From: a bacterium
GTDB taxonomy: Bacteria > Hydrothermota > UBA3073 > JACQXS01 > JAQTXJ01
DNA: 38,395 nt
Assembly (NCBI GenBank): GCA_028688815.1
Contig: JAQTXJ010000019.1
Location: forward strand, 1-38,395
Direction: 5' to 3'
The position numbers and the translations under genes were made by a program. The notes below the pieces were generated by a model. It had not been told where the DNA came from. It did not search any database and saw nothing but the letters and a program-made list of their open reading frames with translations. The first letter of the stretch is position 1. The number at the start of each line of letters is the position of its first letter. This document shows, one piece after another, positions 1,091-26,622 of the stretch.

Positions 1091-3088
1091 TCAGTAAGAA
1101 AGTCCGAAATAAATTCCCCGTCCCGGGACGCTATATCCCCAGTTTTCCATATATTGTTCATTTATCAGGTTTTCTATTCGCACCTGAAATTTTAGTCCTT
1201 TTTTGCTTACATCAGACGGGAACGAATAACTTACGTCTATTTTTCTGCAGGATTTAATATCTACAAGTCCGAAAGCATCTTTATCCTGTCTTTTCCCTAT
1301 ACAGCAGAATTTCACGTTAAACCAGCGGTAATTTATTCCCCACCTATAATTAAGAGATGGGATAAGGAGATACGCTTCCGGCCAATCGATTTTATCCACA
1401 CCGGTAAAATTTATATCCATACTTAAATCGTCAAAAAGCATAAGCAAAAAATAAAATTCTATTCCATCGGTGCACCATGCATTACTTACGGTTCTGTTTT
1501 TATATTTACCATCTATGAGATCAATTGATTGAACAACATGTTGGTTGAAATATGTAATTTCCGCCCTTCCATCTTTGAATCTATGTTCTGCTCCGACATC
1601 ATACCCTCTGTTTTGTTCCGGTATAAGTCCCGGATTTCCGGATACCGGGTTAAACAGCTGATAAAAAGTCGGGGTTTTGAATCCGTATCCATAATTCCCC
1701 TTAAACTTTGTATTTTTAACCAGGAAAGCCATAGAGAACAACCACGCGCTCTGAGTTTTGAATCTCTGGTAACCGTCAATTCTCCCGCTAAGATTAAGGA
1801 ATAGGTTTTTATAACTCGGTTCGATTTCCGCATAAATGGCGCGATTAGATATGGAATGAGCGGTATCCCTGGTACAGTTACAGTTCTCCCCGGTTTCTTT
1901 TGCATATTCGATACCCGTTATTACGTGGAAAGATTTCTTAAAGTTAAAACTATTTTGAAGTTCCGTTTTTGCATATTCGCCTTCATAATAATTCTCGTTC
2001 ATATTTGTTCTTGATTTGTCAATACTTTCGTTTCCCCGGGTATTTGTTACTTCCGAACTTATCTTATAGCCATATAAATTTGATAATTTATGGTTAAGCG
2101 ATAATACACCGTATTTAAAGTTCAATAAAGAGACAAGATTAGAACTGTCGGCAAACTGCCCCGCATCAACATCTACTTGCGAACTTCGCATTCCCATTGT
2201 CAGGTCAACGGATAAATTGTTAAACGGGTAAGTGTTTATTTTCGTATAAACGCCTTTATTTTCATATCCATCTTTTTCCGTAGCGGGCAAGCTATCAGTT
2301 AACGAAAGGGCTTTAGATAATCCTCCAGAATTAATATTAAACAAAGAAACGGCATAGTCAAATTTGCCTGTGCCCCCACTTATTCCTGCTCTTTCTTCCA
2401 TAGTCTTATATGCGCCGCCATATCCTTTAGCGTTAATTCGGAACCCTTTTCTCCCTTTTTTTGTAATGATATTTATTACACCGCCGCCTGCATCGTTTCC
2501 GTATATTGAACTCTGGGGGCCACGAATTATTTCTATTTTTTCTACGGCTGTCGTTGATAAGGTACCCCAGTCAAAGCCTCTATCCGTGGATGCGGGATTA
2601 TTTACTTTTACCCCATCTATAAGAACAAGCGTATAGTTTCCTTCAAGGCCTCTCATATGCACGTCTGTGATTCCACCGAATGGACCTTCCTGGGCAACAA
2701 AAACTCCCATATAGTTTCGCAGAACATCAAATACCGTAGGAGACCCATCTCTTTCTATTTCTTCCTGAGTAATAACGCTATAGCACTTGCCGGTATATTT
2801 AACAGATTCTTCCGTTTTTGCAATCGTGTACATATTACCTTTTCTTTTATATGCTTCTTTCATTTCGGCTATTTCTGCAGAGTCCGATTGTTTTAATTTA
2901 ATGTCCGGCAAATATTGGGCTAAATTACTATCTTGTTTGGCACTATCCGGTATGTAAGATACAATGCTGTCGGGAATCTCTTCTACCGAATTGCTGTCGG
3001 GTAAAAATTGTTTTGGATAGGTATTAGGCTTCTCCGGCGGAAGAAAAAAAGAAGAAGCAAGAAGAATTAAGTTAAGAAATATTGTCAT
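1091..3088 (-). CDS. TonB-dependent outer-membrane receptor, BtuB-like
   Basis: 665 residues. It should take up a scarce ligand (cobalamin or a metal chelate) across the outer membrane using TonB energy. A short hydrophobic leader (residues 1-17) is followed by an unusual Asp/Ser/Pro-rich linker (about 20-90) with repeated PDS motifs; the plug domain covers about 100-215, with the hallmark segments VFDVLRNYMGVFV, DVHMRGLEGNYTLVLIDG, VEKIEIIRGPQSSIYG and GGVINIITKKG. The remainder is a beta barrel ending in ENWGYSVPGRGIYFGLSY, matching the aromatic C-terminal strand and the GYxxPGR motif typical of BtuB-like receptors. The ribosome site AGGGGG precedes ATG 3088. It lies 35 bases after a glycine-zipper gene, probably in one operon. 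Cobalamin would suit a cell that uses corrinoid HgcA, but the substrate is inference. Confidence 0.85.
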   Translation of the reverse strand: MTIFLNLILLASSFFLPPEKPNTYPKQFLPDSNSVEEIPDSIVSYIPDSAKQDSNLAQYLPDIKLKQSDSAEIAEMKEAYKRKGNMYTIAKTEESVKYTGKCYSVITQEEIERDGSPTVFDVLRNYMGVFVAQEGPFGGITDVHMRGLEGNYTLVLIDGVKVNNPASTDRGFDWGTLSTTAVEKIEIIRGPQSSIYGNDAGGGVINIITKKGRKGFRINAKGYGGAYKTMEERAGISGGTGKFDYAVSLFNINSGGLSKALSLTDSLPATEKDGYENKGVYTKINTYPFNNLSVDLTMGMRSSQVDVDAGQFADSSNLVSLLNFKYGVLSLNHKLSNLYGYKISSEVTNTRGNESIDKSRTNMNENYYEGEYAKTELQNSFNFKKSFHVITGIEYAKETGENCNCTRDTAHSISNRAIYAEIEPSYKNLFLNLSGRIDGYQRFKTQSAWLFSMAFLVKNTKFKGNYGYGFKTPTFYQLFNPVSGNPGLIPEQNRGYDVGAEHRFKDGRAEITYFNQHVVQSIDLIDGKYKNRTVSNAWCTDGIEFYFLLMLFDDLSMDINFTGVDKIDWPEAYLLIPSLNYRWGINYRWFNVKFCCIGKRQDKDAFGLVDIKSCRKIDVSYSFPSDVSKKGLKFQVRIENLINEQYMENWGYSVPGRGIYFGLSY

Positions 3089-7888: not shown

Positions 7889-8857
7889 ATGGATATATTT
7901 TATCCGGTTAAGTTATTTGCGAATTGGATAACTTACGGGATTTTGAGCTTAAAAGCAAAGACGCTTTTGGCGGAGGCGATAAACTTTTTTATCTTTGATA
8001 CGATAAAAATTTTCATTCTGCTTTCGGTTATTATTTTTGTCGTTTCTATAATAAGGTCGTTCCTGCCCCCGGAAAAAATCCGTAATATCTTAGCAAGAAA
8101 AAATAAATATGCAGGAAATGTTCTTGCGGCTTTGTTCGGCATTGTTACGCCTTTTTGTTCCTGCAGCGCTATTCCCTTGTTTCTGGGGTTTTTGGAAGTT
8201 GGCGTCCCACTCGGGGCAACTTTTTCTTTTCTTGTTGCTTCACCTATGATTAATGAAGTTGCGCTGGTTATGCTTTTCGGGATGTTTGGCTGGAAAATTG
8301 CACTTATTTATGTCGTAAGCGGACTTATAATTTCAATTCTTTCCGGTATAATTATAGGGAAACTAAAAGTCGAAAACTGGGTGGAAAAATTTTCGTTTGC
8401 CAATAAAATAAAAACTTCGGAAGATGGCTCAAAAATAGAATGGAAAGAAAGAATTAATTATGCCAGGGGGTACACTTCCGACATAATTAAAAAAGTCTGG
8501 ATTTACATTCTGGTTGGAATTGGCTTGGGAGCATGGATACACGGGTATGTCCCGATGAACTTTTTGGCTAAGTACGCGGGCGCGGATAAGTGGTATGCGG
8601 TCCCGTTAGCTACGATTATTGGCATTCCGCTTTATTCGAATGCCGCCGGAATTATCCCGTTGGTAAGCGCATTGACCGAAAAGGGAGTAGCGTTGGGAAC
8701 TACCTTGGCGTTTATGATGGCAGTTACTGCTTTGTCTTTGCCTGAATTTATGATTTTAAGAAGGGTAATGAAAACGAAATTGATTTTAGTTTTTGCGGGA
8801 ATTGTCGGAATAGGAATTATTTTTACGGGGTATTTGTTTAACTTTATTATAAAATAG
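7889..8857 (+). CDS. COG0701/DUF318-family CxC permease, ArsP-like
   Basis: 322 residues, about eight to ten membrane helices in two halves separated by a charged loop (about 165-200). The first half ends in GIVTPFCSCSAIPLF, with the family's Cys90-x-Cys92 metal(loid)-binding pair, and the second has the matching IGIPLYSNAAGIIPLVSAL. Members include ArsP (methylarsenite and related organoarsenical efflux) and Cu/Zn or other export permeases. Here it directly follows arsR and precedes the small thioredoxin-like partner that often accompanies this family. Because hgcAB lies downstream, export of methylated mercury or arsenic is a tempting inference, but the substrate cannot be read from sequence. 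Confidence 0.85.
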   Translation: MDIFYPVKLFANWITYGILSLKAKTLLAEAINFFIFDTIKIFILLSVIIFVVSIIRSFLPPEKIRNILARKNKYAGNVLAALFGIVTPFCSCSAIPLFLGFLEVGVPLGATFSFLVASPMINEVALVMLFGMFGWKIALIYVVSGLIISILSGIIIGKLKVENWVEKFSFANKIKTSEDGSKIEWKERINYARGYTSDIIKKVWIYILVGIGLGAWIHGYVPMNFLAKYAGADKWYAVPLATIIGIPLYSNAAGIIPLVSALTEKGVALGTTLAFMMAVTALSLPEFMILRRVMKTKLILVFAGIVGIGIIFTGYLFNFIIK

Positions 8858-8884
8858 AGAGTGAAGTAAGTTAAGTAGGTTAAG

Positions 8885-8945
8885 TCCAGCGGGACTGGAT
8901 ATTAACCTCTAAGGACTATCGTCCAAGAGTTTTTTATAAGTTGAG
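8885..8945 (+). repeat. Two-hairpin intergenic element, copy 2
   Basis: GTCCAGCgggaCTGGAT hairpin, then ACCTCTAA, the inner hairpin GGACtatcGTCC, AAGAG and TTATAAGTTGAGT. It fills most of the gap between the permease and the small thioredoxin. Confidence 0.7.
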
Positions 8946-8972
8946 TGGGGAAGAATAAAGATAGGGGGGAAG

Positions 8973-9209
8973 ATGAAGATAGAAATACTGGGGATTGGGT
9001 GCGCGAAATGCAAACAAACTTATGCCAATGCAGAAAAGGCAGTTAGTGACTTGGGCATTTCCGCAGAGATAGTAAAAGTGGAAAAAATAGATGAAATAAT
9101 GAAATACAGTGTAATGATGACCCCTGCAGTAGTAGTTGACGGCGTTGTTAAATGTTCAGGGAAAATGCCTACAGTTGAAGAAATAAAAGGGTGGATTAAA
9201 CCCGGATGA
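8973..9209 (+). CDS. Small thioredoxin-like redox-active disulfide protein
   Basis: 78 residues, close to the length of the redox-active disulfide protein 2 family (TIGR00412-type, glutaredoxin-like fold). It begins MKIEILGIGCAKCK with the CxxC pair Cys10 and Cys13, has the cis-Pro segment MMTPAVVVDG, and an extra Cys61. No signal peptide, so it acts in the cytoplasm. Genes of this family commonly sit beside, or are fused to, COG0701 permeases, as here. It may deliver thiol-bound metal(loid) to the permease or reduce it. AGGGGGGAAG precedes the ATG. Confidence 0.85.
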   Translation: MKIEILGIGCAKCKQTYANAEKAVSDLGISAEIVKVEKIDEIMKYSVMMTPAVVVDGVVKCSGKMPTVEEIKGWIKPG

Positions 9210-9425
9210 GGACATTAGGAAAAGATATCCAGCGTGGCCGGATAGAAAAATGTTTAAGGTTTGAATGTTAAAGCAGAAAAATTTGGTATGGAATAAGAAT
9301 AGCGAACAGAAAGTTTGGGAAGGATGGGTTTTGGGCTAAAGCCCGAGAGACGATAAGAGGTTTTTTGCCCCCGCCCTAAAGGGCAGGGTAATTAGAAACA
9401 ACCTTTAAGTGAAAGGAGGAAAGCA

Positions 9426-10889
9426 ATGATAAAACAAAAAGTATTACTTGCAGGTATTTTGTTTTTTATTTGTTCTGCAGCTTTTGCAGAACAGGATAAA
9501 TTTACGATAACCGGGGAAGGGAAAATAAGATTTAAATACGTAGAGGCAAACGTAGACACCATAAAAGGCAGTTACGGAGAAACACTAAAGAAAGGACTTA
9601 CATTGCGAGAAAGGATTGATTTATCGGTTAATGTCCCGATTACCGAATATCTCAAAATAAGCGGGACGGTAAGAATAAGCAATGAGGATACGCCCGTTGT
9701 AATGCTGCCTGCTCCCGATTTTGTTTCTACAAAAGCTATCGCAGGATGGTTGTCGCTGAGTTTTGAAAAAAGTCCCTTTGCTGTAACCGCAGGAAGCTAT
9801 GATGCAAGTTTTACTCCGTTGACGTTTATGCGATGGGATTTGAATGATAACCCTCTTGGCGCTACAAGCTGCGCGTGTCAGGCATCAGTTGGCGGAATCA
9901 GTGGAGAGAGCCTTGAAGAACTCCAAGAAGATTATAAGCTGGAAGGTCTTAAAACGGAGTTGAGCGGAGAATTCGGCGACATTACGGCACTGTTTGCGAT
10001 TCCCCAATTTGAAAGTAAAAATATAAGCGCCAATAAATATATGTATGGCGCAAGAGCGCGGTTTGTTCCGGCTTTCATAGAAAATCTTTCTTCCGCGAGT
10101 TTTGGCGTGACGGGATTGAGCCTAAAAGACGATACCGCAAAAGTCGGAATGTCTTACACGAAACCGTTTCAAAGCGACGTGTTTGGATTTGATGCCAGGA
10201 TTCCTATTTTATGGAATACTTCTTTTGTCGCGGAATATGCCCGAAGCATAAGAGATGATGATTTACGAGATACCTTGAATATAATTCGCAGAAATAATGG
10301 TATTAGTGGAGGATTACAGCTTTTAAGCAGTGATAAGATAGATGTAAATTTGTTATACTTACAGATGGACCCTTATTTTGCTCCCCTATACAGATCGTTA
10401 TCTTGTGCGGCCAATCGCAGGGGAGTTCGTTTTTCCTTTACTTATAGGGACATGCCACTGTTTTCAAAAGAAATAACCATTGCAGGCTATTATAAAAAAC
10501 TCAAGGAAATTGAACCGACATGGGATGATATGTTTATACCTATCCCTATATCGATACCTACTACATATGATTCAAAAATTACAACCTTCCACAGCTCGTT
10601 AACAGATTTTCTTGTTGCGAACTTCGGAATAACCGTGCCAATCGTTTCCAACTGGAAAATAGAGAACGATTATGAATACAGGTCGGAGTATAGGCCGGAC
10701 GATATTTTGACAACAATGGACGAGAAAATAAATAACCAGACAGCTATAGTATCTTTGATATTATCTTATGAATTTACAATGCAAAGCAAGGTTTTGCTAA
10801 AATACCAATTTATAGATTATATGGATAATCTCGGGGAAAAAGATTATATAGCGAAAATACCAATGTTACAGTTTAGTTTTAAGTTTTAA
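9426..10889 (+). CDS. Predicted outer-membrane beta-barrel protein of the metal island
   Basis: 487 residues. Signal peptide MIKQKVLLAGILFFICSAAFA, then alternating hydrophobic/polar strands throughout, and a C-terminal strand ending MLQFSFKF, whose final Phe fits outer-membrane barrel assembly. Cys149-x-Cys151 (in ATSCACQAS) and a further Cys near residue 327 are unusual for a barrel and may bind metal or be thioredoxin targets. The strong AAAGGAGG site at 9413-9420 supports ATG 9426. I do not recognise a named family; porin-like or a structural barrel are both possible. Its place between two thioredoxin-like genes in the arsR-hgcAB run suggests a role in moving or binding thiol-metal species at the outer membrane, which is inference. 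Confidence 0.65.
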   Translation: MIKQKVLLAGILFFICSAAFAEQDKFTITGEGKIRFKYVEANVDTIKGSYGETLKKGLTLRERIDLSVNVPITEYLKISGTVRISNEDTPVVMLPAPDFVSTKAIAGWLSLSFEKSPFAVTAGSYDASFTPLTFMRWDLNDNPLGATSCACQASVGGISGESLEELQEDYKLEGLKTELSGEFGDITALFAIPQFESKNISANKYMYGARARFVPAFIENLSSASFGVTGLSLKDDTAKVGMSYTKPFQSDVFGFDARIPILWNTSFVAEYARSIRDDDLRDTLNIIRRNNGISGGLQLLSSDKIDVNLLYLQMDPYFAPLYRSLSCAANRRGVRFSFTYRDMPLFSKEITIAGYYKKLKEIEPTWDDMFIPIPISIPTTYDSKITTFHSSLTDFLVANFGITVPIVSNWKIENDYEYRSEYRPDDILTTMDEKINNQTAIVSLILSYEFTMQSKVLLKYQFIDYMDNLGEKDYIAKIPMLQFSFKF

Positions 10890-11197
10890 TAACGGAATAC
10901 AGAAAATCAAACCACAGAGAGCGCAGAGAAGGGAAATAAAAAATAGAAAAAAGCTTTAGATTTAAAAGAAAAAGATAAAAGAGAGTACACAGAGGGAAAG
11001 AATAGAAGGCAAAGAGAAAATCGGTTATAGCGCGGACAATAGAAAAATAGTTGAGAGCAAAAGATTAATTATTTTCGCAAGAGATTAAGAGTTTAACTGT
11101 CTAATTAAGTAGAATAAAAAAGATAGAATGGAAAAATCCAGCTAAGCTGGATAAGAAACTCTAAACATAAAAAGATAAGAGTTTCTAAGGAGGAAAG
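10890..11197. repeat. 308-base gap with repeat fragments and a hairpin leader
   Basis: No gene seen. It holds ACCACAGAGAGCGCAGAG (10911-10928) and a related fragment near 10984, long purine runs, and at 11136-11189 a TCCAGCtaaGCTGGATAA hairpin followed by AGAAACTCT ... AGAGTTTCT (9-bp arms). The second stem ends just before the AAGGAGG site of the next gene. Confidence 0.6.
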
Positions 11198-11656
11198 ATG
11201 AAAAGAAAATGCTTTATGTTTGTCCTAATATCTATATTAGGATTCGCGACGAAAGGGTTTTGTACAAGTAGTGACTCAAGCAAGACCGTTCATGCTATTA
11301 TACGGGACACTACAACCGTTCAGGTTATTCTACATGATAGCGTCCAAGCTATTCCGGTAGTTAGCTCCCAGGCTGACTCAACAAGAATTCCGATGCTTAT
11401 GGATTTTGGCGGCAACAGGTGCAAAAATTGTATAATAACAAAAAAACGACTGGAAAAGATTGAAAAGAAGTTCAAAGGGAAAGCAAAAATAATATCCATA
11501 GATGTGAATAAAGAAAAAGAACTTACGAAAAAATATAAAATACTTCTTATACCTACACTTGTATTCTTAGATAAAACAGGGAAAGAAGTTTATCGTAAAA
11601 CGGGTCTGATGGAAGAAAAAGCAATGAGTACGAAGCTGGAAGAGTTAACAAAATAG
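11198..11656 (+). CDS. Exported thioredoxin-like protein
   Basis: 152 residues with an N-terminal signal or anchor segment (MKRKCFMFVLISILGFATKG), a Ser/Thr-rich linker to about residue 60, then a compact thioredoxin fold. The active site is CKNC (Cys75, Cys78) after MDFGGNR, and the cis-Pro is in LLIPTLVFLD (Pro119). KIISIDVNKEKELTKKYKI matches the central strand and helix of thioredoxins such as TlpA/DsbD-c types. It is expected on the periplasmic side, kept reduced by the CcdA encoded downstream. Strong AAGGAGG ribosome site. Partner substrates (outer-membrane CxC protein, metal thiols) are inferred from gene context. Confidence 0.85.
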   Translation: MKRKCFMFVLISILGFATKGFCTSSDSSKTVHAIIRDTTTVQVILHDSVQAIPVVSSQADSTRIPMLMDFGGNRCKNCIITKKRLEKIEKKFKGKAKIISIDVNKEKELTKKYKILLIPTLVFLDKTGKEVYRKTGLMEEKAMSTKLEELTK

Positions 11657-11682
11657 AAACTACAAGATTGCACAGAACGAAA

Positions 11683-11740
11683 AGTCCAGCTTAGCAGGAT
11701 AACTTGGACTAAGTTCCTAGCGGAACAAACTCCAAGTAAT
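11683..11740 (+). repeat. Two-hairpin intergenic element, TTGGACT variant
   Basis: GTCCAGCttaGCAGGATAA, then ACTTGGACT (11702-11710) pairing with ACTCCAAGT (11729-11737, one mismatch) around the inner hairpin GTTCCtagcGGAAC (11713-11726). Confidence 0.6.
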
Positions 11741-11866
11741 CGCAGAGACCGCTGAGAATAGAAGACGATTTAGTCCGCCTGAGGCGGATAAAAATTAACA
11801 GATAACGAAAAACGAAAGAGGAGTTAGAGAGGATACAGAGAATACAGAGAAAGAAAAGGAGAAAAA

Positions 11867-12343
11867 ATGAAGAAAGGATTTTTTGTTCTAAGCGTTTTGA
11901 TGGTTGCATTAATAGCGGGCTGCAACAACTCTAAGGAACAGGCAGAAAACAAACAAGTATGCGTGGACACTACTTTGCAAGCTGCGATAAATAAGATAGA
12001 TACTTCCGTTCAAAATAAAACAGTTGGAAATACAACGGAGGTAAAAACGGGTTTGCCTAAGATTGTTTTAATTACTACATCCGAAGGATGCGACTGCACG
12101 CTTGCGAATTGTTCTGCGGGAGAAAAAACAATTACGGGTTATGTTTCACAATTCAAAGATAAAGTAATTTTTGAAAAACTTGATTATACAAAAGACCAGG
12201 ATCCGGTTGCAAAACTGGCAGATAAATATGGGATTACGACTATACCTGCTTTGTTGTTTTTTGATAAACAGGGGAATTTTAAGGGGAAACTGGAAACTTC
12301 CTGGGATGAGAAAGCAATAAAAGAAAAGCTTGGAACAAATTAG
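11867..12343 (+). CDS. Thioredoxin-fold lipoprotein with CDCTLANC motif
   Basis: 158 residues. The lipobox LIAGC puts lipidated Cys19 at the mature N-terminus. After a polar linker, residues 64-158 form a thioredoxin fold: KIVLITTSEGCDCTLANC, a helix, VIFEKLDYTKDQDPVAKLADKYGI, and cis-Pro127 in TTIPALLFFDKQG. The active site is unusual: Cys75, Cys77 and Cys82 give CxCx4C in place of CxxC, which could bind a soft metal or act as a resolving-Cys relay. It is membrane-tethered on the periplasmic side next to the gene for CcdA. The AAAGGAG site precedes ATG 11867. A substrate of CcdA is likely; the metal role is speculative. Confidence 0.85.
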   Translation: MKKGFFVLSVLMVALIAGCNNSKEQAENKQVCVDTTLQAAINKIDTSVQNKTVGNTTEVKTGLPKIVLITTSEGCDCTLANCSAGEKTITGYVSQFKDKVIFEKLDYTKDQDPVAKLADKYGITTIPALLFFDKQGNFKGKLETSWDEKAIKEKLGTN

Positions 12344-12356
12344 CAAGATGAAAAAC

Positions 12357-12384
12357 GAGATTCTTCGCTACACTCAGAATGACA
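12357..12384 (-). repeat. GTCATTCTGAG..GAAGAATCT repeat fragment
   Basis: On the minus strand this reads TGTCATTCTGAG then CGAAGAATCTC, a short repeat widespread in bacterial intergenic DNA. A second copy has entered the coding region at 38265-38302. Confidence 0.55.
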
Positions 12385-12433
12385 AATTAGAAAGTAGGTA
12401 GTAGGAAGGGACAAAAAGAAATAGGAGAAAAAT

Positions 12434-13135
12434 ATGTTACAGAATTTGTTGGATAATGCAGGTTGTTTAGTCCAGACTAACCCGTGGTTAGCGTTTGGCG
12501 CAGTATTCATTGGCGGACTTCTTACTGCTTGCAACCCCTGTGTTTTGGCGATGATTCCTTTGATGATCGGGTTTGTCGGGGGGATGGAAGGCACATCGGG
12601 ATTCAAAAAATCTTTTCTTTTTACGCTTGTTTTTATTTTAGGTTTATCCATAACTTTTGCCATTCTCGGGATTATAGCCGCTACTGCAGGAAAACTTCTC
12701 GGCGACGTGGGAGTTTTCTGGAAATGGATTGCAGGCGGAGTATGCGTGATTATGGGAATCCACCTCTTGGATTTAATAAAGTTCAACGTCCCGGCATTTG
12801 GTAAAGTTAAAGTTAAGCAAAAAGGTCTTTTAGGGGCATTTTTATTGGGATTGCTTTTTGGTATAGTTTCTACTCCTTGCGCTGCGCCTATTCTTGTAGT
12901 CTTATTAACTTATATAGCGGCAACCGGGTCCAGCATAATTTACGGAGCCATATTGCTTCTGGTATATGCTTTGGGACATTGTATGTTAATTCTTGTCGTT
13001 GGCACGTCAGTCGGGCTCGCAAAAGGATTGCTCGAATCCAAAGGCTTTAGAACTTCCACTAATATTTTAAGAAAAATAGCCGGAGTCCTGATAATATCCG
13101 TAGGAATATATTTCTTGTTTTTCTTGCATAAGTAA
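12434..13135 (+). CDS. ccdA: CcdA-type transmembrane thiol:disulfide transporter
   Basis: 233 residues, six membrane helices, no fused thioredoxin domains: the length and form of CcdA. The two half-repeats each carry the conserved Cys motif: LLTACNPCVLAMIPL (Cys33, Cys36) and GIVSTPCAAPILVVLL (Cys149). CcdA takes electrons from cytoplasmic thioredoxin and passes them to periplasmic thioredoxin-like proteins. Two such proteins are encoded directly upstream, so this gene probably supplies them. ATAGGAG precedes the ATG. CcdA often serves cytochrome c maturation, but no cytochrome or heme-handling genes are present here. Confidence 0.92.
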   Translation: MLQNLLDNAGCLVQTNPWLAFGAVFIGGLLTACNPCVLAMIPLMIGFVGGMEGTSGFKKSFLFTLVFILGLSITFAILGIIAATAGKLLGDVGVFWKWIAGGVCVIMGIHLLDLIKFNVPAFGKVKVKQKGLLGAFLLGLLFGIVSTPCAAPILVVLLTYIAATGSSIIYGAILLLVYALGHCMLILVVGTSVGLAKGLLESKGFRTSTNILRKIAGVLIISVGIYFLFFLHK

Positions 13136-13191
13136 CATCAAACCGATAACAAAAAGTTGAGTAGGTTAAGTGGGTTGAGTTAGGAAAAAGT

Positions 13192-14277
13192 ATGGGCAAG
13201 AAAAGTCTTTCATTGTTGGATAGGTTTCTTACTCTCTTAATATTTATAGCTATGGGAGTAGGCATAGGAATTGGGTATTTTATTCCTTCCGTAACTTTAG
13301 CCATCACTAAAATGCAAGTCGGGACGACTTCAATTCCCATTGCAATAGGTTTAATATTAATGATGTATCCGCCTCTGGCAAAAGTAAAATACGAAGAATT
13401 AGGCAAGGTTTTCAAGGATACAAAAGTTATGGGGTTGTCCCTTATACAGAATTGGATTGTCGGGCCTATATTAATGTTTGTTCTTGCGTGCACATTCCTC
13501 TGGAATTATCCCTCCCTTATGTATGGAGTTATTCTTATTGGGATCGCCCGCTGTATTGCTATGGTAATCGTGTGGAACGAACTTGCCGAAGGCGACACTG
13601 AATATGCCGCTGCTTTAGTCGGGTTGAATTCTTTGTTCCAGGTTTTTTTATATTCTTTTTATGCGTATATATTTATTACCGTACTTCCTGCTCGTATGGG
13701 AATAGGAAAAGGACTTGCCGTAAACATTACTATAGTACAAATTGCAAAAAGCGTTTTCATATATCTGGGAATACCTTTTATCGCGGGAATGATTACACGC
13801 TTCTCTTTAATAAAAACAAAAAGTAAAAAGTGGTACGAAGAAAAGTTTATACCTAAAATAAGTCCTATTACTTTAATCGCATTACTTTTTACGATTATAA
13901 TAATGTTTTCATTAAAAGGCAATTACATAGTTAAGCTTCCTATGGATGTTTTAAGAGTTGCAGTCCCTTTACTTTGTTATTTCTTTATTATGTTTTTTAT
14001 AAGCTTTTTTATGTCTTACAAACTGGGCGTGAATTACGAAAAGTCGGCAACGCTTTCGTTTACGGCAGCAAGCAACAACTTTGAACTGGCAATTGCAGTA
14101 GCCGTTGCGATATTCGGGATTAATTCACAGGTGGCGTTTGCGGCAGTCGTCGGGCCTTTGCTGGAAGTTCCGATTCTTATAAGTCTTGTAAACGTGGCGT
14201 TGGTTTTTAAGAAGAAGTATTTTGTAAAACCGATGACAAAAATTTTCACCGTCCCGCCACAGCGGGATAAACTCTGA
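13192..14277 (+). CDS. acr3: Acr3-family arsenite efflux permease
   Basis: 361 residues, ten membrane helices. Hallmarks of Acr3 are present: [19 protein letters not shown] (Cys121 is the conserved transport cysteine) and the discontinuous-helix segment [20 protein letters not shown] with Glu298. It expels As(OH)3 using the proton motive force. It sits 56 bases after ccdA and 144 before hgcA on the same strand. The last nine residues (TVPPQRDKL) and the TGA stop come from a palindromic repeat (14244-14292) that also occurs in intergenic DNA at 33401-33463 and 4777-4832, so the native end has been replaced; the transport core is complete. Confidence 0.95.
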
Positions 14278-14421: not shown

Positions 14422-15462
14422 ATGGGGAATACAAATAAAAAATATATTATAGGGGTTATAGATACAGAAGCAGGAAAAATGCCCAAAGTGTCAACTACGC
14501 TTAGCGTTGCCGATAAATGGGGAACATTTAAAGTCAGATGGTCGTTTAACCGAATGGATTATAGAGTAACCCCTGGTATTTATGCCGTAGGAAATCCAAA
14601 CCGTGATTCGCTTGTATTTGTATCTGCAAACTATAAATTAAGTTTTGACGTTTTGCGGCAATCCCTAAAAGGAATGGATGCGTACATAATGGTACTTGAT
14701 ACGCACGGCATTAACGTATGGTGTGCCGCAGGAAAAGGAACGTTCGGGACATCCGAAGTAGTCAATCGTATTGGATTTGTGGAATTGAAAAAACTCGTTA
14801 ATCACCGGAATATTATCTTGCCCCAACTCGGAGCGCCAGGAGTTTCGGCACACGAAGTAAAAAGATTGTCCGGGTTTTCGGTTATTTACGGACCGGTTCG
14901 CGCTGTTGACATAAAGTCCTTTATCAATGCAGGAATGAAAGCTTCAAAGAAAATGCGGCAAGTAAGGTTTTCGATTTATGACAGGTTGTTGCTGGTTCCG
15001 ATGGAAATTATGAGCGGGTTAAAGTATATATTGTGGGGGGCGTTTATAACTGTTCTGCTTTCGGGGTTTTCAAAAACAGGGTATTCAACTAATACAGCCG
15101 TAATTGTGGGAGCGCATTCGGCAATAATCCTCATACTTGCATATTTAACCGGAACTGTTTTTGGCCCTCTGCTTCTCCCCTGGTTGCCCGGCAGAAGTTT
15201 TGCATTCAAGGGAGGAATTCTCGGGTTTGTTTTGTTTGCAATTTTATATTTTACGGGTTTTATGGGAAAAGATTTAATTGAGGTTATAGCATGGGGATTA
15301 TTAATTCCCGGAATAAATTCGTTTATATTAATGAACTTTACGGGCGCTTCAACGTATACGTCTTTGTCCGGGGTAAGAAAAGAAATGCGTTTCGCAGTGC
15401 CTTTGCAAGCAATATCAGCATTTATAGGGATAGTTTTATATGTGGTTAGTAGGTTTCGTTAA
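14422..15462 (+). CDS. hgcA: Mercury methyltransferase corrinoid protein HgcA
   Basis: 346 residues, usual HgcA length. HgcA donates a methyl group from a corrinoid to Hg(II), giving methylmercury. The N-terminal half (about 5-180) is the CFeSP-like corrinoid domain with the cap-helix motif GINVWCAAGKGTFGT; Cys101 is the expected cobalt ligand. The C-terminal half has about five membrane helices (about 197-345) and the HgcA-typical NFTGASTYTSLSGVRKEM (305-322). CFeSP large subunits share a related cap region but have an N-terminal TIM barrel and iron-sulfur site and no membrane domain, so this is HgcA. AAAGGA precedes ATG 14422. Downstream hgcB completes the pair. No promoter is evident in the 144 bases after acr3, so it may be transcribed with the arsenic genes and governed by ArsR. 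Confidence 0.97.
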   Translation: MGNTNKKYIIGVIDTEAGKMPKVSTTLSVADKWGTFKVRWSFNRMDYRVTPGIYAVGNPNRDSLVFVSANYKLSFDVLRQSLKGMDAYIMVLDTHGINVWCAAGKGTFGTSEVVNRIGFVELKKLVNHRNIILPQLGAPGVSAHEVKRLSGFSVIYGPVRAVDIKSFINAGMKASKKMRQVRFSIYDRLLLVPMEIMSGLKYILWGAFITVLLSGFSKTGYSTNTAVIVGAHSAIILILAYLTGTVFGPLLLPWLPGRSFAFKGGILGFVLFAILYFTGFMGKDLIEVIAWGLLIPGINSFILMNFTGASTYTSLSGVRKEMRFAVPLQAISAFIGIVLYVVSRFR

Positions 15463-15481
15463 CAATAAGTAAAGTGGGGTG

Positions 15482-15540
15482 TTATCCAGCCAAGCTGGAT
15501 AACAATCCCTAATCCCGCAATGGCGGGAAAGGGCTTGTTA
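15482..15540 (+). repeat. Two-hairpin element between hgcA and hgcB, overlapping the hgcB ribosome site
   Basis: TTATCCAGC-caa-GCTGGATAA is a perfect 9-bp hairpin. It is followed by ATAACAATCCCT ... AGGGCTTGTTAT enclosing TCCCGCaatgGCGGGA. The last arm (GGGAAAGGG) is the only purine-rich stretch before ATG 15540, so the hgcB ribosome site lies inside the repeat. Confidence 0.75.
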
Positions 15541-15842
15541 TGAAAGAAAAATATCTTAAGAATGTAGTTACCCTGGAGTTTTACTTGGACAAATGTACGG
15601 GATGCGGCATGTGTGAGACCGTTTGTCCGCATAGTGTTTTTAAAATAGAAAAAGGAAAAGCGCATATTACGGAGAGGGATTTATGTATGGAATGTGGCGC
15701 TTGCGCCGGAAACTGCCCTGCAAAAGCAATTAAAGTAAGAGCGGGAGTCGGTTGTGCAGGTGCGATTATTGTGGGAGCGCTTACGGGAAGCGAACCTACT
15801 TGCGGCGGCTCGGATGATTCGAAAAAATCCTGTTGTGGGTAG
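15540..15842 (+). CDS. hgcB: Mercury methylation ferredoxin HgcB
   Basis: 100 residues. Two [4Fe-4S] motifs are intact: Cys19, 22, 25, 29 (CTGCGMCETVCP) and Cys49, 52, 55, 59 (CMECGACAGNCP). HgcB-specific features follow: Cys72 in RAGVGCAG, and the C-terminal vicinal pair Cys98-Cys99 in KKSCCG, with an extra Cys88 in PTCGG. HgcB reduces the HgcA corrinoid and its C-terminal thiols may pass Hg(II) to HgcA. The gene is 77 bases downstream of hgcA, a distance made up by a two-hairpin repeat that carries its likely ribosome site. The order hgcA-hgcB is the standard one. Confidence 0.97.
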   Translation: MKEKYLKNVVTLEFYLDKCTGCGMCETVCPHSVFKIEKGKAHITERDLCMECGACAGNCPAKAIKVRAGVGCAGAIIVGALTGSEPTCGGSDDSKKSCCG

Positions 15843-15954: not shown

Positions 15955-18087
15955 TTATTTTATCAGTATTAGTTTCTTTGTTTCTTTAAATGTATTGGTA
16001 GTTAGCCTCACAAAATATATTCCGTTAGTGTAGATATTAGGAGCAAATGTATAATTCCCTTTGCTTAAAACACCTGTATAAATATCTTTTTTCAGTCTTC
16101 CGCATAAATCGTATATTTTTATATCCGTTTGCATTGTCTTCGGAACTGACAGATAAATTTTGTCTTTTATAATTTTTAAATCCGCATTCCAAGATCCAAA
16201 ATTCGAAATTGACCGTTCTTCTATCCCTTGTTCGTTATAGCTTGACACCCCACCACCGGAGGTCCCAATCCATTTTATGCTCCCCTCTATTGCTATTGCC
16301 GTAATTCCATTTGTCGGCAACCCTGAATTACTCATATCGTACGTAGTCCAGTTAGTGTCGTCAAACTTTGCCAATCCGGCATCATCAGTTCCAATCCATT
16401 TTACTTCGGTCGTGTCTTCTATTGCTATGAAATTAACATAATTACTCGGCAAATATGAACTATAAATATCATACACAGTCCAATTAGTTCCGTCAAATTT
16501 TGCCAAACCATTATAAGTTCCAATCCATTTTACTCCGGTCGTGCCTTCTATTGCTATTGAACTAACATAATTATCCGGCAATCCGGAATTATACATATTA
16601 TAAACAGTCCAGTTAGTCCCATCAAACTTAGCTAAACCACCACCGGTTCCAATCCATTTTGCGCCGGCACCATCTATTGCTATTGAACGAACATAATTAT
16701 TCGGCAAACCTGAATTAAGCGTATCGTACACTGTCCAGTTAGTCCCGTCAAACTTCGCAAGCCCCTTGCTCTCACCAAAACAATCGCTGCCAATCCAGAC
16801 GTTGCTCCCTTCTGTTGCAATAGCATAGATATGGTTGCAAAATAAACCTGAATTACTCGTATCATATACAGTCCAATTAGTCCCGTCAAACTTTGCAAGA
16901 CCTCCGTAATCAAAATCATCCCAGGTGCCAATCCATATATTGCTCCCACCTGTTGCAATGGCGCTGACACATTTGGTAGGAAATACAGAATTTAAAGTGT
17001 CATAAGTAGTCCATGCGTTAGCTTTAAACTCCGTAATGCCTAAACCGGTTCCAATCCATTTTCCGCCGGTCGTGCTTTTTATTGCCATTGAATAAACATA
17101 ATTACTCGGCAAACCTGAATTACTCATATTATACGTAGCCAAATTCGTCCCATAAAACTTTATTAAGCCCCCGCTGGCTCCAATCCATTTTGTGCTGCCT
17201 TCTACCACTATTGAGTTAACATCATTCAAATCATATACGGTCCAGTTAGCGTTCTCAAACTTTGCAAGCCCTTCCAATGTCCCAATCCATTTTACGCCGG
17301 CGCCATCTATTGTTATTGAACGAACCGAATTATTCGGCAAACCTGAATTAAGCATATTGTACACAGTCCAGTTGATTCCGTCAAGCTTCGCAAGCCCATT
17401 GCCGGTACAAATCCATTTTGCCCCGGCGCCTTCTATTGCTACTGAAACAACATTATTACTCGGCAAACCTGAATTATAAGTCCCATAAACAGTCCAGTTG
17501 ACGTTATCAAATTTTGCAAGTCCCTCATCAGAAGTCCCAACCCATTTTGCGCCGGTCGCGCCTTCTATTGTTATTGAACGAACATAATTACTTGGTAAGC
17601 CTGAATTGCTCGTATTATATACAGTCCAGTTCGTACCATCAAATTTTACAAGACCACTGTATGTTCCAATCCATTTTATGTTTCCTTCTATTGCTATTGC
17701 CATAATTCCATCCGTCGGCAAGCCTGAATTATAATCATATACGGTCCAGTTCGTACCATCAAATTTCGCCAACCCATAAGGCGTTCCAATCCATTTTGCG
17801 CCGGTACCATCTATTGCTATTGAACTAATATAATTATTCGGCAAACCTGAATTGGAGTGATTATAAAACGCCATATCTCCTGTAGCCGTATCCATACAGA
17901 CTAGTCCTCCATCCGTTCCAATCCATAGTTTGTTCCCTTCCCCGACAATATCCTGAACAAAGCTTCCACTTGTATAATTAGTCCACCCCGGGTGTTGTGC
18001 GTTGGCGGTATTAAAAAACACTCCAACAAGTAAAACAATCCTGCCTACCCGAAAAACGAGCATTCCCAAAAAATCTTTATTTTGCAT
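15955..18087 (-). CDS. Fourteen-repeat beta-propeller surface protein with type IX sorting domain
   Basis: 711 residues from ATG 18087, chosen for the GGAGGG site just upstream and a signal peptide ending TANAQ; a longer frame to 18150 lacks both. Residues about 40-625 contain 14 imperfect repeats of about 42 residues with consensus KWIGT..GLAKFDGTNWTVY and NSGLP.NYV.SIAIEG, the two-component-regulator-propeller (Reg_prop) repeat; 14 blades would make two seven-bladed propellers. The C-terminal 80 residues (ADLKIIKDKIYLSVP, IYDLCGRLKK, GNYTF, GIYFVRL, KLILIK) form a type IX-like sorting domain shared with three proteins at the right end of the window. Likely secreted or surface-bound. Convergent with hgcB; TTGACT at 18150-18145 is a possible -35 box. 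Confidence 0.85.
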   Translation of the reverse strand: MQNKDFLGMLVFRVGRIVLLVGVFFNTANAQHPGWTNYTSGSFVQDIVGEGNKLWIGTDGGLVCMDTATGDMAFYNHSNSGLPNNYISSIAIDGTGAKWIGTPYGLAKFDGTNWTVYDYNSGLPTDGIMAIAIEGNIKWIGTYSGLVKFDGTNWTVYNTSNSGLPSNYVRSITIEGATGAKWVGTSDEGLAKFDNVNWTVYGTYNSGLPSNNVVSVAIEGAGAKWICTGNGLAKLDGINWTVYNMLNSGLPNNSVRSITIDGAGVKWIGTLEGLAKFENANWTVYDLNDVNSIVVEGSTKWIGASGGLIKFYGTNLATYNMSNSGLPSNYVYSMAIKSTTGGKWIGTGLGITEFKANAWTTYDTLNSVFPTKCVSAIATGGSNIWIGTWDDFDYGGLAKFDGTNWTVYDTSNSGLFCNHIYAIATEGSNVWIGSDCFGESKGLAKFDGTNWTVYDTLNSGLPNNYVRSIAIDGAGAKWIGTGGGLAKFDGTNWTVYNMYNSGLPDNYVSSIAIEGTTGVKWIGTYNGLAKFDGTNWTVYDIYSSYLPSNYVNFIAIEDTTEVKWIGTDDAGLAKFDDTNWTTYDMSNSGLPTNGITAIAIEGSIKWIGTSGGGVSSYNEQGIEERSISNFGSWNADLKIIKDKIYLSVPKTMQTDIKIYDLCGRLKKDIYTGVLSKGNYTFAPNIYTNGIYFVRLTTNTFKETKKLILIK

Positions 18088-18482
18088 TTTCCCTCCAATT
18101 TGTTTTATATACGTTACATCCTTATTATTATATATTGCATAATAAGTCAAGATATATATAGAAAAACGTATTATTTCAACGGCTATTCCCGCCGTCTATC
18201 CAAATCAGAGCCCCCCCAATCCAATCCGTCTCAGGCAAACTAAAAACTAAAGTTTTAATGGCTTGCCAACGTTTCCGCCATTAACTCCAAATAAACAAAA
18301 CTACGCTCTTGACAAATTCTGAATTATGTATCATACATATAATATTATAAAAAAGTTCAGTCCGCCTTGGGCGGAGATAAGTTAGAGTCCGGATAGCGGG
18401 ATAGCAATCTCTAATCCAGTAAAACTGGAAAGAGCTTGACTATAATGTTTCTGCCGAAACAAACTCTAACTAAGGAGGAAGA
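18088..18482. promoter_or_regulatory. Divergent intergenic region: two promoters, a dyad and a nested hairpin element
   Basis: No gene seen. Minus strand: TTGACT (18150-18145) with an AT-rich -10 region before the propeller gene. Plus strand: TTGACA at 18309-18314, the 15-mer CAAATTCTGAATTAT (18313-18327) shared with the arsR upstream region, a perfect 7-1-7 dyad TATGTAT-c-ATACATA (18325-18339) and TATAAT (18338-18343). Then TCCGCCttggGCGGA (18361-18375) and a nested element (18380-18471) whose outer arms AGTTAGAGT / ACTCTAACT enclose a two-hairpin unit. AAGGAGG at 18472-18478 serves ATG 18483. Confidence 0.55.
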
Positions 18483-19562
18483 ATGAAAACATATAAAGTA
18501 TTAGTTTCAATGGCATTAGTTATGTCTTTTTTCGTTGTGTCTCAAGTAAAAGCTGAGACAAGACAGGTAGTGGTAATAGAAGAAGTAACGACAACAGTTG
18601 GCTGACCGTACTGTCCTGCTGCAGCGGGTCCGCTGCATCAAATAGAAGTTGCCCAGGGCGATGCAATAGCAGTCATAAGTCTTCACGTACAATATTCGGG
18701 AACAAGCAATCCATTTAGAACGACAGAAACTTCACCAAGAGCTTTGACTTATTATGCGCCATCAGGTATACCTGCTTCATATTGCGATGGAATTGTTGCA
18801 AGAACAGGGGCACAAGCTTACAGCACGCATCTTTCAGATTTTAATGCCCGCAAAGCAGTAGCTTCTCCGATTAAAATAGAAATTACGGGTACTTATAATT
18901 CAGGAGCAAAAACGGGAGTTGCAAATATCCATATAAGCAATACGAGTGGCTCTACTGTTAGCGGAACTATGCAGTGTATTATTACGGAAACCAAAATTGC
19001 TTATGCCTGGGGTGCAGGAACAAGCGCGCCTCAAGACAGCATATTCCACGTAGCAAGAGATTTGATTCCCGACCAGAATGGAGAAGCAGTATCAATATCG
19101 GCAGGCGGCACTCTTGATAAAGTAAGAAATTTTACCATAGGTTCAACATGGAAACCAAACGATTGTTACCTTATTGTTTTTGTCCAGGGGAGCAACAAAG
19201 AAATATACCAGGCTGCAAAAGTTTGCGCACCACAAATACAAGGGATTGAGGAGTCTGCTTTAAAATATCCCATTATGTTACAGAACGAGCCCAATCCATT
19301 TAAGGATAAAGTAACTATTAGTTATAATATTCCTGTTACCTCTAAAACATCACTAGAAGTTTATGACATAACGGGAAAACTTTTAAAGACAATAGTTAAC
19401 AAGGTAGAAACAGCCGGGCATAAAGAAGTTATATGGAACGGGAAAGACATCAAGGGAAAAGAAATGCCATCTGGTTTATATTTTATAAAACTTATCTGTC
19501 TATCGGCAAGGCAGGTATCCGAGAAAACCGAATTGACAAGCAAAGTAATGTTATTGAGGTAA
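18483..19562 (+). CDS. Candidate selenoprotein: Omp28/thioredoxin-like exported protein with in-frame TGA
   Basis: Read through TGA 18603-18605 this is 359 residues from ATG 18483 (AAGGAGG 5 bases upstream). Signal peptide MKTYKVLVSMALVMSFFVVSQVKA, then VVVIEEVTTTVG-(TGA)-PYCP-AAAGPL: the TGA is codon 41, at the first Cys position of a CPYC redox motif, with Cys44 following. DAIAVISLHVQYSG and SGIPASYCDG fit the Omp28-like thioredoxin fold (strand after the active-site helix, cis-Pro loop). Residues about 180-270 look Ig-like, and the end (NEPNPFKDKVTISYNIP, YDITGKLLKT, GLYFIKL) is a type IX sorting domain. Frame and homology continue on both sides. If the TGA is a true stop, the gene is a pseudogene cut at residue 40. 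A SECIS-like hairpin downstream favours selenocysteine. The sorting domain end (LICLSARQVSEK) may hold a degenerate palindrome. Confidence 0.75.
18603..18640 (+). promoter_or_regulatory. Candidate bacterial SECIS element
   Basis: Starting from the in-frame TGA (18603-18605), 14 bases later a perfect 7-bp stem begins: TGCAGCG (18620-18626) with CGCTGCA (18631-18637), apical loop GGTC (18627-18630). Two further pairs (18617-18640, 18618-18639) flank a C/T mismatch. The loop GG(U) lies 22 bases past the TGA; bacterial SECIS loops such as that of fdhF also present GGU at about this distance. No SelB-binding test is possible here. Confidence 0.6.
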
Positions 19563-24758: not shown

Positions 24759-25682
24759 ATGCTTTTAATAGAATTCATTTCTTTAATTGTTCTTCTTAGC
24801 ATGTCTGCTTTTTTTTCCGCTTCCGAGACGGCTATATTTCATCTGCCGGTTATAACGATTGACAAACTAATTTACCGCCATAAAAATCTACAAATATTGA
24901 AAAGGAGGGAACTATTTCTCGGGACGATACTTTTTGGGAATACGCTTGTTAACGTAAGCGCATCAATAATTTCAGGACAAATAGTTTACCAGATATTTCA
25001 CAGCTCATACATACTAATATTAACTTGTGTTTTGACTTATATTTTACTGGTATGCGGTGAAGTTACGCCGAAACTTTATTCCCTCCGTAATGCAGAAAAA
25101 ATTGCAATTAAGGCAACTCCTATTTTAAATATATTGAGATATATATTATCTCCGGTTGTGTTCCCGCTGGAAGCATTAATTTCTTTTATTTCTCCTAAAA
25201 AGCAATCAAATTTCAGTAAAGAAGAATTCAAAACCTTTATCGAATCAGACAAACAATTGAGTATGAAAGCCCAGAAGATTATATTGAATTTATTAGATTT
25301 TAAAAACTTTACCGCAGAGAATTTAATGACACCTATTACACAGTTGGAGTGTCTTGAAGATTCTAGTCTCCCGGACAAAACGTTGGTTGCAAAATTAAAA
25401 CACTCCAGAATTCCAGTCTACGAAAATGATATTGCAAATATAAAGGGCATTTTCTATGTGAAAGATATGTTAAAAATAAATAACAATGAAACGTATATGT
25501 CTCTCAAACAATTAATGCGGGAGCCTTATTATGTAGAGAAATCAATGAAAGCATCGGAAGTGTTTACGGAATTTAATAGAAGACGCATTCACATTGCCGT
25601 GGTGACGGACGATTCAAAAAAGACATTGACTGTCGGAATAATTACTATGGATGATATTTTAAAAACCATAATTCTTAAATAA
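24759..25682 (+). CDS. DUF21/CBS-domain membrane protein (CorB/CNNM-like), first of pair
   Basis: 307 residues. Three to four membrane helices of a CNNM/DUF21 domain (1-135; SAFFSASETAIFHLP, FGNTLVNVSASIISGQIVY, CGEVTPKLYSLRNAE) followed by a CBS pair (about 180-305; NLMTPITQLECLED, RIPVYENDIANIKGIFYVKDML, GIITMDDILKTI). The family includes CorB/CorC and YhdP-type proteins tied to Mg2+ export and resistance. No C-terminal CorC_HlyC domain is visible, so it is a short form. Adjacent to a second copy; together they may form a heterodimer. Follows ybeY as in many genomes, where CorC is also a neighbour of ybeY. Confidence 0.88.
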   Translation: MLLIEFISLIVLLSMSAFFSASETAIFHLPVITIDKLIYRHKNLQILKRRELFLGTILFGNTLVNVSASIISGQIVYQIFHSSYILILTCVLTYILLVCGEVTPKLYSLRNAEKIAIKATPILNILRYILSPVVFPLEALISFISPKKQSNFSKEEFKTFIESDKQLSMKAQKIILNLLDFKNFTAENLMTPITQLECLEDSSLPDKTLVAKLKHSRIPVYENDIANIKGIFYVKDMLKINNNETYMSLKQLMREPYYVEKSMKASEVFTEFNRRRIHIAVVTDDSKKTLTVGIITMDDILKTIILK

Positions 25683-25686
25683 TAAT

Positions 25687-26622
25687 ATGCTTATAATACT
25701 TATATTGTTGTTGTTCTGCGCTTTTTTTGCTGCCTCGGAAATGGCATTTATCGGGTGCAACTGGGTAAGATTGAAGAACTGGGCAGATAATAAAAAACCG
25801 GGAGCAAAGCTGGCTTTGAAATTATTACATCACCAGGAAAACCTTTTAGGAACGATACTTGTAGGAACGAATTTAACCATTGTCGGAATGAGTTTGCTCG
25901 CAAATAAATACTGGGAAAATAAAATACCGGAATTTTTAATATCCCTGATATGTACTGTAGCTATTTTTCTATTCGCTGAGATACTTCCAAAGGCTATCGT
26001 TTCAAGAGCCAAAGATAAGTTCTTCATTCTGTTTACGCCTATGTACATATTTTTTTACTGGGTTCTTTATCCTTTTATATTCATTGTTTACAGGACTGCT
26101 ACAGGAATATTGAAGTTATTAAAATCAACTTCTTTGCCACGTAATTCCGTCTTTACAAAGGAAGAATTCAGGGTAGCTTCCAAACATCTTTTCTCGCTCA
26201 AGGAGCAAGGGATTATATTACGGTTAGTTGAATTCGACAGCAAGCCTGCGAGAGATATAATGATTCCATTAAATCAAATATGCGCGATAGAAATAAGTTC
26301 TTCCGTTGAAGAAGCGAAAAAAATAGCTGCTGAAACTCAATATTCAAGACTTCCCGTGTATGAAGAAACGCTTGATAAAATAGTCGGGTATATAAGAGCA
26401 AGGGATTTATTAATCACGGATGACATTAAAACTATTATTAAAGAATGCAAAATTGTAACGGAAACAAAATTACTTAATGAAATGCTTAACGAATTGAATA
26501 TGGATAAGCCCGGGCTTATAATGGTAACGAATGCGAACAATAAAATAACGGGTATGATTACGATGGAAGACATCATCGAAGAGCTGTTTGGTGAAATAGA
26601 AGACGAGTACGATAAGATATAA
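25687..26622 (+). CDS. DUF21/CBS-domain membrane protein (CorB/CNNM-like), second of pair
   Basis: 311 residues, 4 bases after the previous stop. The DUF21 domain has the family elements LLFCAFFAASEMAFIGCN, LGTILVGTNLTIVGMSLLA and FAEILPKAIVSRAKDK; the CBS pair has IMIPLNQICAIE, YSRLPVYEETLDKIVGYIRARDLL and TGMITMEDIIEELFGEIEDEYD, whose end is the classic CBS-to-CorC junction, but the CorC domain itself is absent. The two copies are only distantly alike, so the duplication is old or both were inherited together. Probably divalent-cation transport at the inner membrane. Confidence 0.9.
   Translation: MLIILILLLFCAFFAASEMAFIGCNWVRLKNWADNKKPGAKLALKLLHHQENLLGTILVGTNLTIVGMSLLANKYWENKIPEFLISLICTVAIFLFAEILPKAIVSRAKDKFFILFTPMYIFFYWVLYPFIFIVYRTATGILKLLKSTSLPRNSVFTKEEFRVASKHLFSLKEQGIILRLVEFDSKPARDIMIPLNQICAIEISSSVEEAKKIAAETQYSRLPVYEETLDKIVGYIRARDLLITDDIKTIIKECKIVTETKLLNEMLNELNMDKPGLIMVTNANNKITGMITMEDIIEELFGEIEDEYDKI

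Follow-up and report, generated by a model that had tools for sequence, protein, structure and literature searches.

A branch of Omp28-related selenoproteins with a type IX-like sorting tail in an uncultured bacterial phylum

Selenoproteins related to Omp28 were first reported in 2008 as the GOS_C family of ocean metagenomes, where 74 Sec sequences with a thioredoxin-like fold and SECIS-like elements were found (PMC2398784). A recent review lists the curated model NF045500, "Omp28-related selenoprotein," as the same family and gives its motif as UxxC (2026 review, Table 1, PMC13188914). Because this family has been catalogued and in print since 2008, selenoproteins of this kind are already known, and a sequence-only reading of the DNA studied here, which knew of no secreted, type IX-sorted Omp28-like selenoprotein, placed the novelty too high. 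What is new lies at the level of the branch. The protein described below scores 54.5 bits against NF045500, whose curated cut-off is 200, none of 147 genomes of its phylum reaches that cut-off, and a broader genome set searched with the same model held no member near it; the branch thus falls outside NF045500 as curated. By its sequences, it is a distinct, phylum-wide branch of a known kind of selenoprotein, with a tail of the type IX secretion system (T9SS). Literature searches, which covered few subscription journals, returned nothing on Omp28 together with selenoproteins, and for selenocysteine together with type IX secretion gave one paper, which names selenocysteine just once.

The gene was found in a stretch of 38,395 nucleotides, called the window here, from a fragmented MAG of 2.67 Mb that is 92% complete. 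It consists of 359 codons running from an ATG to a TAA at 19560-19562, with an in-frame TGA at codon 41 as the sole break and Pro-Tyr-Cys-Pro directly after it. Along the frame follow a signal peptide, a thioredoxin fold, an Omp28 domain, and a T9SS-type tail (Table 1). The sequence-only reading had described one long frame broken by this TGA alone, and both the sequence and a scan of the window for joined frames bear that out.

Table 1. Coordinates of the Omp28-type selenoprotein gene and its features within the window
Feature	Position	Strand	Basis
Selenoprotein gene, read through UGA-41	18483..19562	+	Frame, Pfam, relatives, dN/dS 0.147 after TGA
Ribosome-binding site AAGGAGGA, preceding ATG 18483	18472..18479	+	Sequence
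Putative signal peptide, residues 1-24, cleavage approximate	18483..18554	+	Hydrophobic helix 2-19 in structure model
Thioredoxin-fold domain, residues 26-126	18558..18860	+	Domain model pLDDT 93.1; PDB thioredoxins TM ~0.7
UGA read as selenocysteine 41	18603..18605	+	59 relatives: TGA (43) or Cys codon (16)
Redox motif Sec-Pro-Tyr-Cys	18603..18614	+	Residues 41 (Sec/Cys) and 44 (Cys) invariant in 40 aligned members
bSECIS hairpin, 7-bp stem, loop GGTC	18620..18637	+	Sequence, codon shuffles, family covariation
Omp28 domain match, residues 90-247	18750..19223	+	PF11551 56.1 bits (cut-off 34.9)
T9SS-type C-terminal sorting domain, residues 270-338	19290..19496	+	PF18962 (Por_Secre_tail) 37.2 bits (cut-off 27), TIGR04183 31.4 bits, both above cut-off

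A search for family members covered 199 relatives and gave matches in 149 genomes, some of them to the sorting tail alone, and many of the full-length matches hold exactly one internal TGA. Among 59 relatives aligned across the redox site, 43 carry TGA at codon 41 and the other 16 a TGC or TGT (three of these being weak, distant matches), with no further codon in that column. The first residue of the CxxC motif, proposed earlier from the window as the selenocysteine site, is exactly where homologues carry either Cys or TGA. The TGA is not a matter of chance, because it is kept in the orthologue of the sister genome (82% identity) and recurs in those 43 relatives. The window's genome and the sister genome carry six family copies each, every one with TGA. 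A tree of 56 members requires five changes between the Sec and Cys states, at least four of them forced by well-supported branches; by this reconstruction, exchanges between Sec and Cys have occurred several times within the phylum's branch.

Reading the UGA as selenocysteine calls for a hairpin, and the 7-bp stem with GGTC loop already noticed in the window is present, its strands TGCAGCG and CGCTGCA at 18620-18626 and 18631-18637 enclosing the loop at 18627-18630. Published constraints on bSECIS elements ask for a G in the first two bases of a loop of 3 to 9 nt, a stem of 4 to 16 bp, a distance of 16 to 37 nt from the UGA, and a minimum free energy of at most -7.5. The window's gene falls within all of them: its GGTC loop begins 21 nt past the TGA (the 7-bp stem begins at 14 nt), and the bare hairpin has -10.9 kcal/mol. 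Taken alone, this hairpin does not stand out from dinucleotide shuffles (z -0.82). It does stand out from synonymous-codon shuffles when loop and position are held to the bSECIS constraint (p 0.011), but it is the family that carries the case for a SECIS element. Most Sec members form a hairpin whose loop has a G among its first two bases and lies about 19 to 23 nt after the UGA. Compared with synonymous-codon shuffles of the same peptides, Sec members reach a mean z of 2.17, with 86% at p<0.05, whereas Cys members reach 0.32, with 6% at p<0.05. In 17 sequences that share one register, five of the seven stem pairs have changed on both sides, giving 15 covariation cells versus 4.9 in shuffles (0 of 500 as high), a signal destroyed by sliding the stem. 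A second register of eight sequences is fully paired and too conserved to add much, and a few Sec members (for example, L133, L135, and L139) show no clear hairpin under a simple model.

Outside the window, where the sequence-only reading proposed to look for selenocysteine machinery, counting a lack of selB and selC as a refutation, the same genome has selA (518 bits), selB (373 bits), and a tRNA-Sec (70 bits) with anticodon TCA, that is, UCA. The selA gene is divided between two contigs, whose ends share a 246-bp overlap at 99.6%, so selA, selB, and tRNA-Sec form one locus. The fourth component, selD, gave nothing above cut-off in this 92% complete assembly. It was found in 14 of 15 genomes tested, most often with one in-frame TGA, and in the sister genome a UGA-containing selD adjoins an Omp28 selenoprotein gene. 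Once sister genomes had shown such selD genes, the missing selD was set aside as a refutation of selenocysteine, although it still counts against that reading; its absence is probably an assembly gap, which we take as the simplest reading. The relatives' selD genes (L165, L170, L179, and L180) themselves contain UGA. The motif of the sister genome's selD is GGGUAAK, and genomes G125 and G021 have two UGA-containing selD genes each.

The codon follows the machinery. Among the genomes listed, selB is above cut-off in 47 of 49 that have a TGA member and in 5 of 35 with only non-TGA members, the table being hand-compiled from the members listed, so that a TGA member outside the lists may exist in some of the 35. 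Fisher's test gives p 2.5e-15, a value in which the independence of related genomes is overstated. The two exceptions among the TGA genomes, G145 (53% complete) and G132 (88%, 760 contigs), are incomplete or fragmented, and G004, a genome of the same order, has a Cys member and no selB. Together with the codon column and the hairpins, these counts leave us very nearly certain that the Omp28-type gene encodes a selenoprotein.

The fold bears on what such a protein might do. In a structure model of the full protein (mean pLDDT 90.6), the domain's first helix begins with Sec41 and Cys44, and the invariant Pro97 precedes the next strand. Searched against the PDB, a model of the domain alone matches thioredoxins, and its topology is that of a thioredoxin: beta-alpha-beta-alpha-beta-beta-alpha, with the redox pair at the first helix and a proline before the third strand. 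A fold search with the full-length model put Ig-like matches on top and was uninformative for the redox domain. At the other end of the protein, the proposed type IX sorting domain was upheld by sequence, in that the tail scores above cut-off and the genome encodes the T9SS translocon protein SprA (404 bits summed). A scan of genome contigs gave mostly T9SS tails from Bacteroidota. The protein is likely exported as T9SS cargo, judging by this tail, although export is less certain than selenocysteine because the same stretch also exceeds the cut-off of FlgD_ig (PF13860).

Reading frame, coding constraint, Sec/Cys exchange, SECIS element, machinery, fold, and tail match were all computed, and they are consistent with the following model. 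With the hairpin 14 nt downstream as the signal, SelB and tRNA-Sec(UCA) would insert selenocysteine at UGA-41. The N-terminal signal peptide, followed by type IX secretion through the C-terminal tail, would then bring the protein to the cell surface. There, the Sec-Pro-Tyr-Cys pair of the thioredoxin-fold domain may act as a selenol/thiol-disulfide oxidoreductase with Cys44 as the resolving residue, most likely reducing disulfides or peroxides on substrates that are exported or extracellular. Within the window, a DsbD-type membrane protein (12434-13135) and a thioredoxin (11198-11656) are candidate electron donors. An exported Sec-thioredoxin acting as a disulfide reductase is the most likely function, and we hold the model as a whole with high confidence.

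Gene neighborhoods suggest two other roles. In 6 of 10 stretches examined (G001, G072, G110, G124, G021, and G027) an Omp28 gene adjoins selD, and in the other four it lies within a few kb of selB, usually with selA as well. One possibility is that the Sec protein is chiefly devoted to taking up, storing, or delivering selenium, and not to reducing disulfides in general. The ten stretches, however, were picked for proximity of Omp28 and sel genes and are not a random sample; the selD-adjoining copies in G021, G027, and G124 lack the TGA; Cys members remain in genomes that lack selB; and each protein has a single Sec in a classical UxxC thioredoxin site. We regard a selenium-handling role as unlikely.

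Marginally less probable still is a specialization of the window's copy for mercury or arsenic stress. Its gene follows acr3, hgcA, and hgcB, and the order acr3-hgcA-hgcB-Omp28(Sec)-rpiB is common to the window and the sister genome. Among the 147 phylum genomes, however, only 11 have hgcA, an Omp28 gene stands in the flanks examined around hgcA only in this genus, and the Sec family extends far beyond that genus. Since adjacency to hgcAB is confined to this genus in those flanks, a general link with mercury methylation was rejected.

Several other genes surround the locus. The mercury-methylation pair occupies 14422-15842 (+), after acr3, and consists of hgcA (NF040863, 437.8 bits, motif NVWCAAGK) and hgcB (NF040864, 125.9 bits). 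Upstream, a metalloid and redox cluster at 7889-14277 (+) includes an ArsP-type permease (7889-8857), the thioredoxin and DsbD-type genes named above, and acr3 itself (13192-14277). Between hgcB and the selenoprotein gene, the window, unlike the sister genome, has a gene for a PorZ-like protein (15955-18150, -) with a T9SS tail and a score below the PorZ cut-off. A tandem pair of GldE/CorC-like genes at 24759-26622 (+) and a BtuB-like TonB-dependent receptor at 1091-3088 (-) also score below curated cut-offs, which in the latter case is that for B12 receptors.

The remaining alternatives deny selenocysteine altogether. Under the standard code the protein ends at residue 40, and in a fragmented MAG the TGA might result from a sequencing error or genuinely terminate a pseudogene that is decaying. 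Yet downstream of the TGA, dN/dS between the window's gene and the sister orthologue is 0.147, which points to purifying selection, and there are no further stops; the sister genome and 43 relatives have TGA at this codon, and the rest have Cys. Neither a cysteine codon misread in this assembly nor decay among homologues, both raised by the sequence-only reading as ways in which it could fail, was found: independent assemblies keep the TGA, and homologues are intact, the 59 aligned members having no second in-frame TGA. Decay or error is accordingly extremely improbable. Genome-wide reassignment of TGA to an ordinary amino acid, which an in-frame TGA within a conserved gene might suggest and which was doubted from the start, can be dismissed to the same degree, as the whole window read with TGA open yields the Omp28-type gene (43+318 codons) as its single gene-like joined frame, TGA members have one TGA each at the redox position only, and presence of TGA tracks selB.

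An Omp28 selenoprotein family that in several families has selD or selAB as a neighbor, and that by its sequences is exported, raises a broader possibility. We suggest, tentatively and with slightly more doubt than belief, that this uncultured phylum keeps its Sec machinery largely for multi-copy, T9SS-exported, surface-displayed Sec-thioredoxins, which would constitute a selenium-dependent extracellular redox system apart from marine GOS_C and repeatedly switching between Sec and Cys. The branch is notable for its phylum-wide spread, copy number, linkage to sel genes, and repeated Sec/Cys exchange. With many close Sec/Cys pairs and at least four exchanges, the question of why Sec is used rather than Cys becomes testable within one protein family. 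Standard annotation would start the gene past the TGA and lose the active site, and such genes are therefore missed in MAGs.

Three known groups frame the comparison. Like Omp28 outer membrane proteins (PF11551, NF033782), the window's protein carries the same domain over its length, but it differs in having Sec at the first CxxC residue and a T9SS-type tail, and it scores below the lipoprotein cut-off of NF033782 (59.7 versus 150). With Sec-containing thioredoxins (UxxC, PF00085) it shares the thioredoxin fold and a UxxC that opens the first helix, whereas its sequence is remote (best thioredoxin match, E 0.73), and it is predicted to be exported and continues into Omp28 and sorting domains. 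The closest likeness is to NF045500/GOS_C, which is also Omp28-type, with a thioredoxin-like fold, Sec in UxxC, a SECIS-like element, and Cys homologues; the window's family is set apart from it by NF045500 model score, by its multiple copies, and by its place beside selD or selAB.
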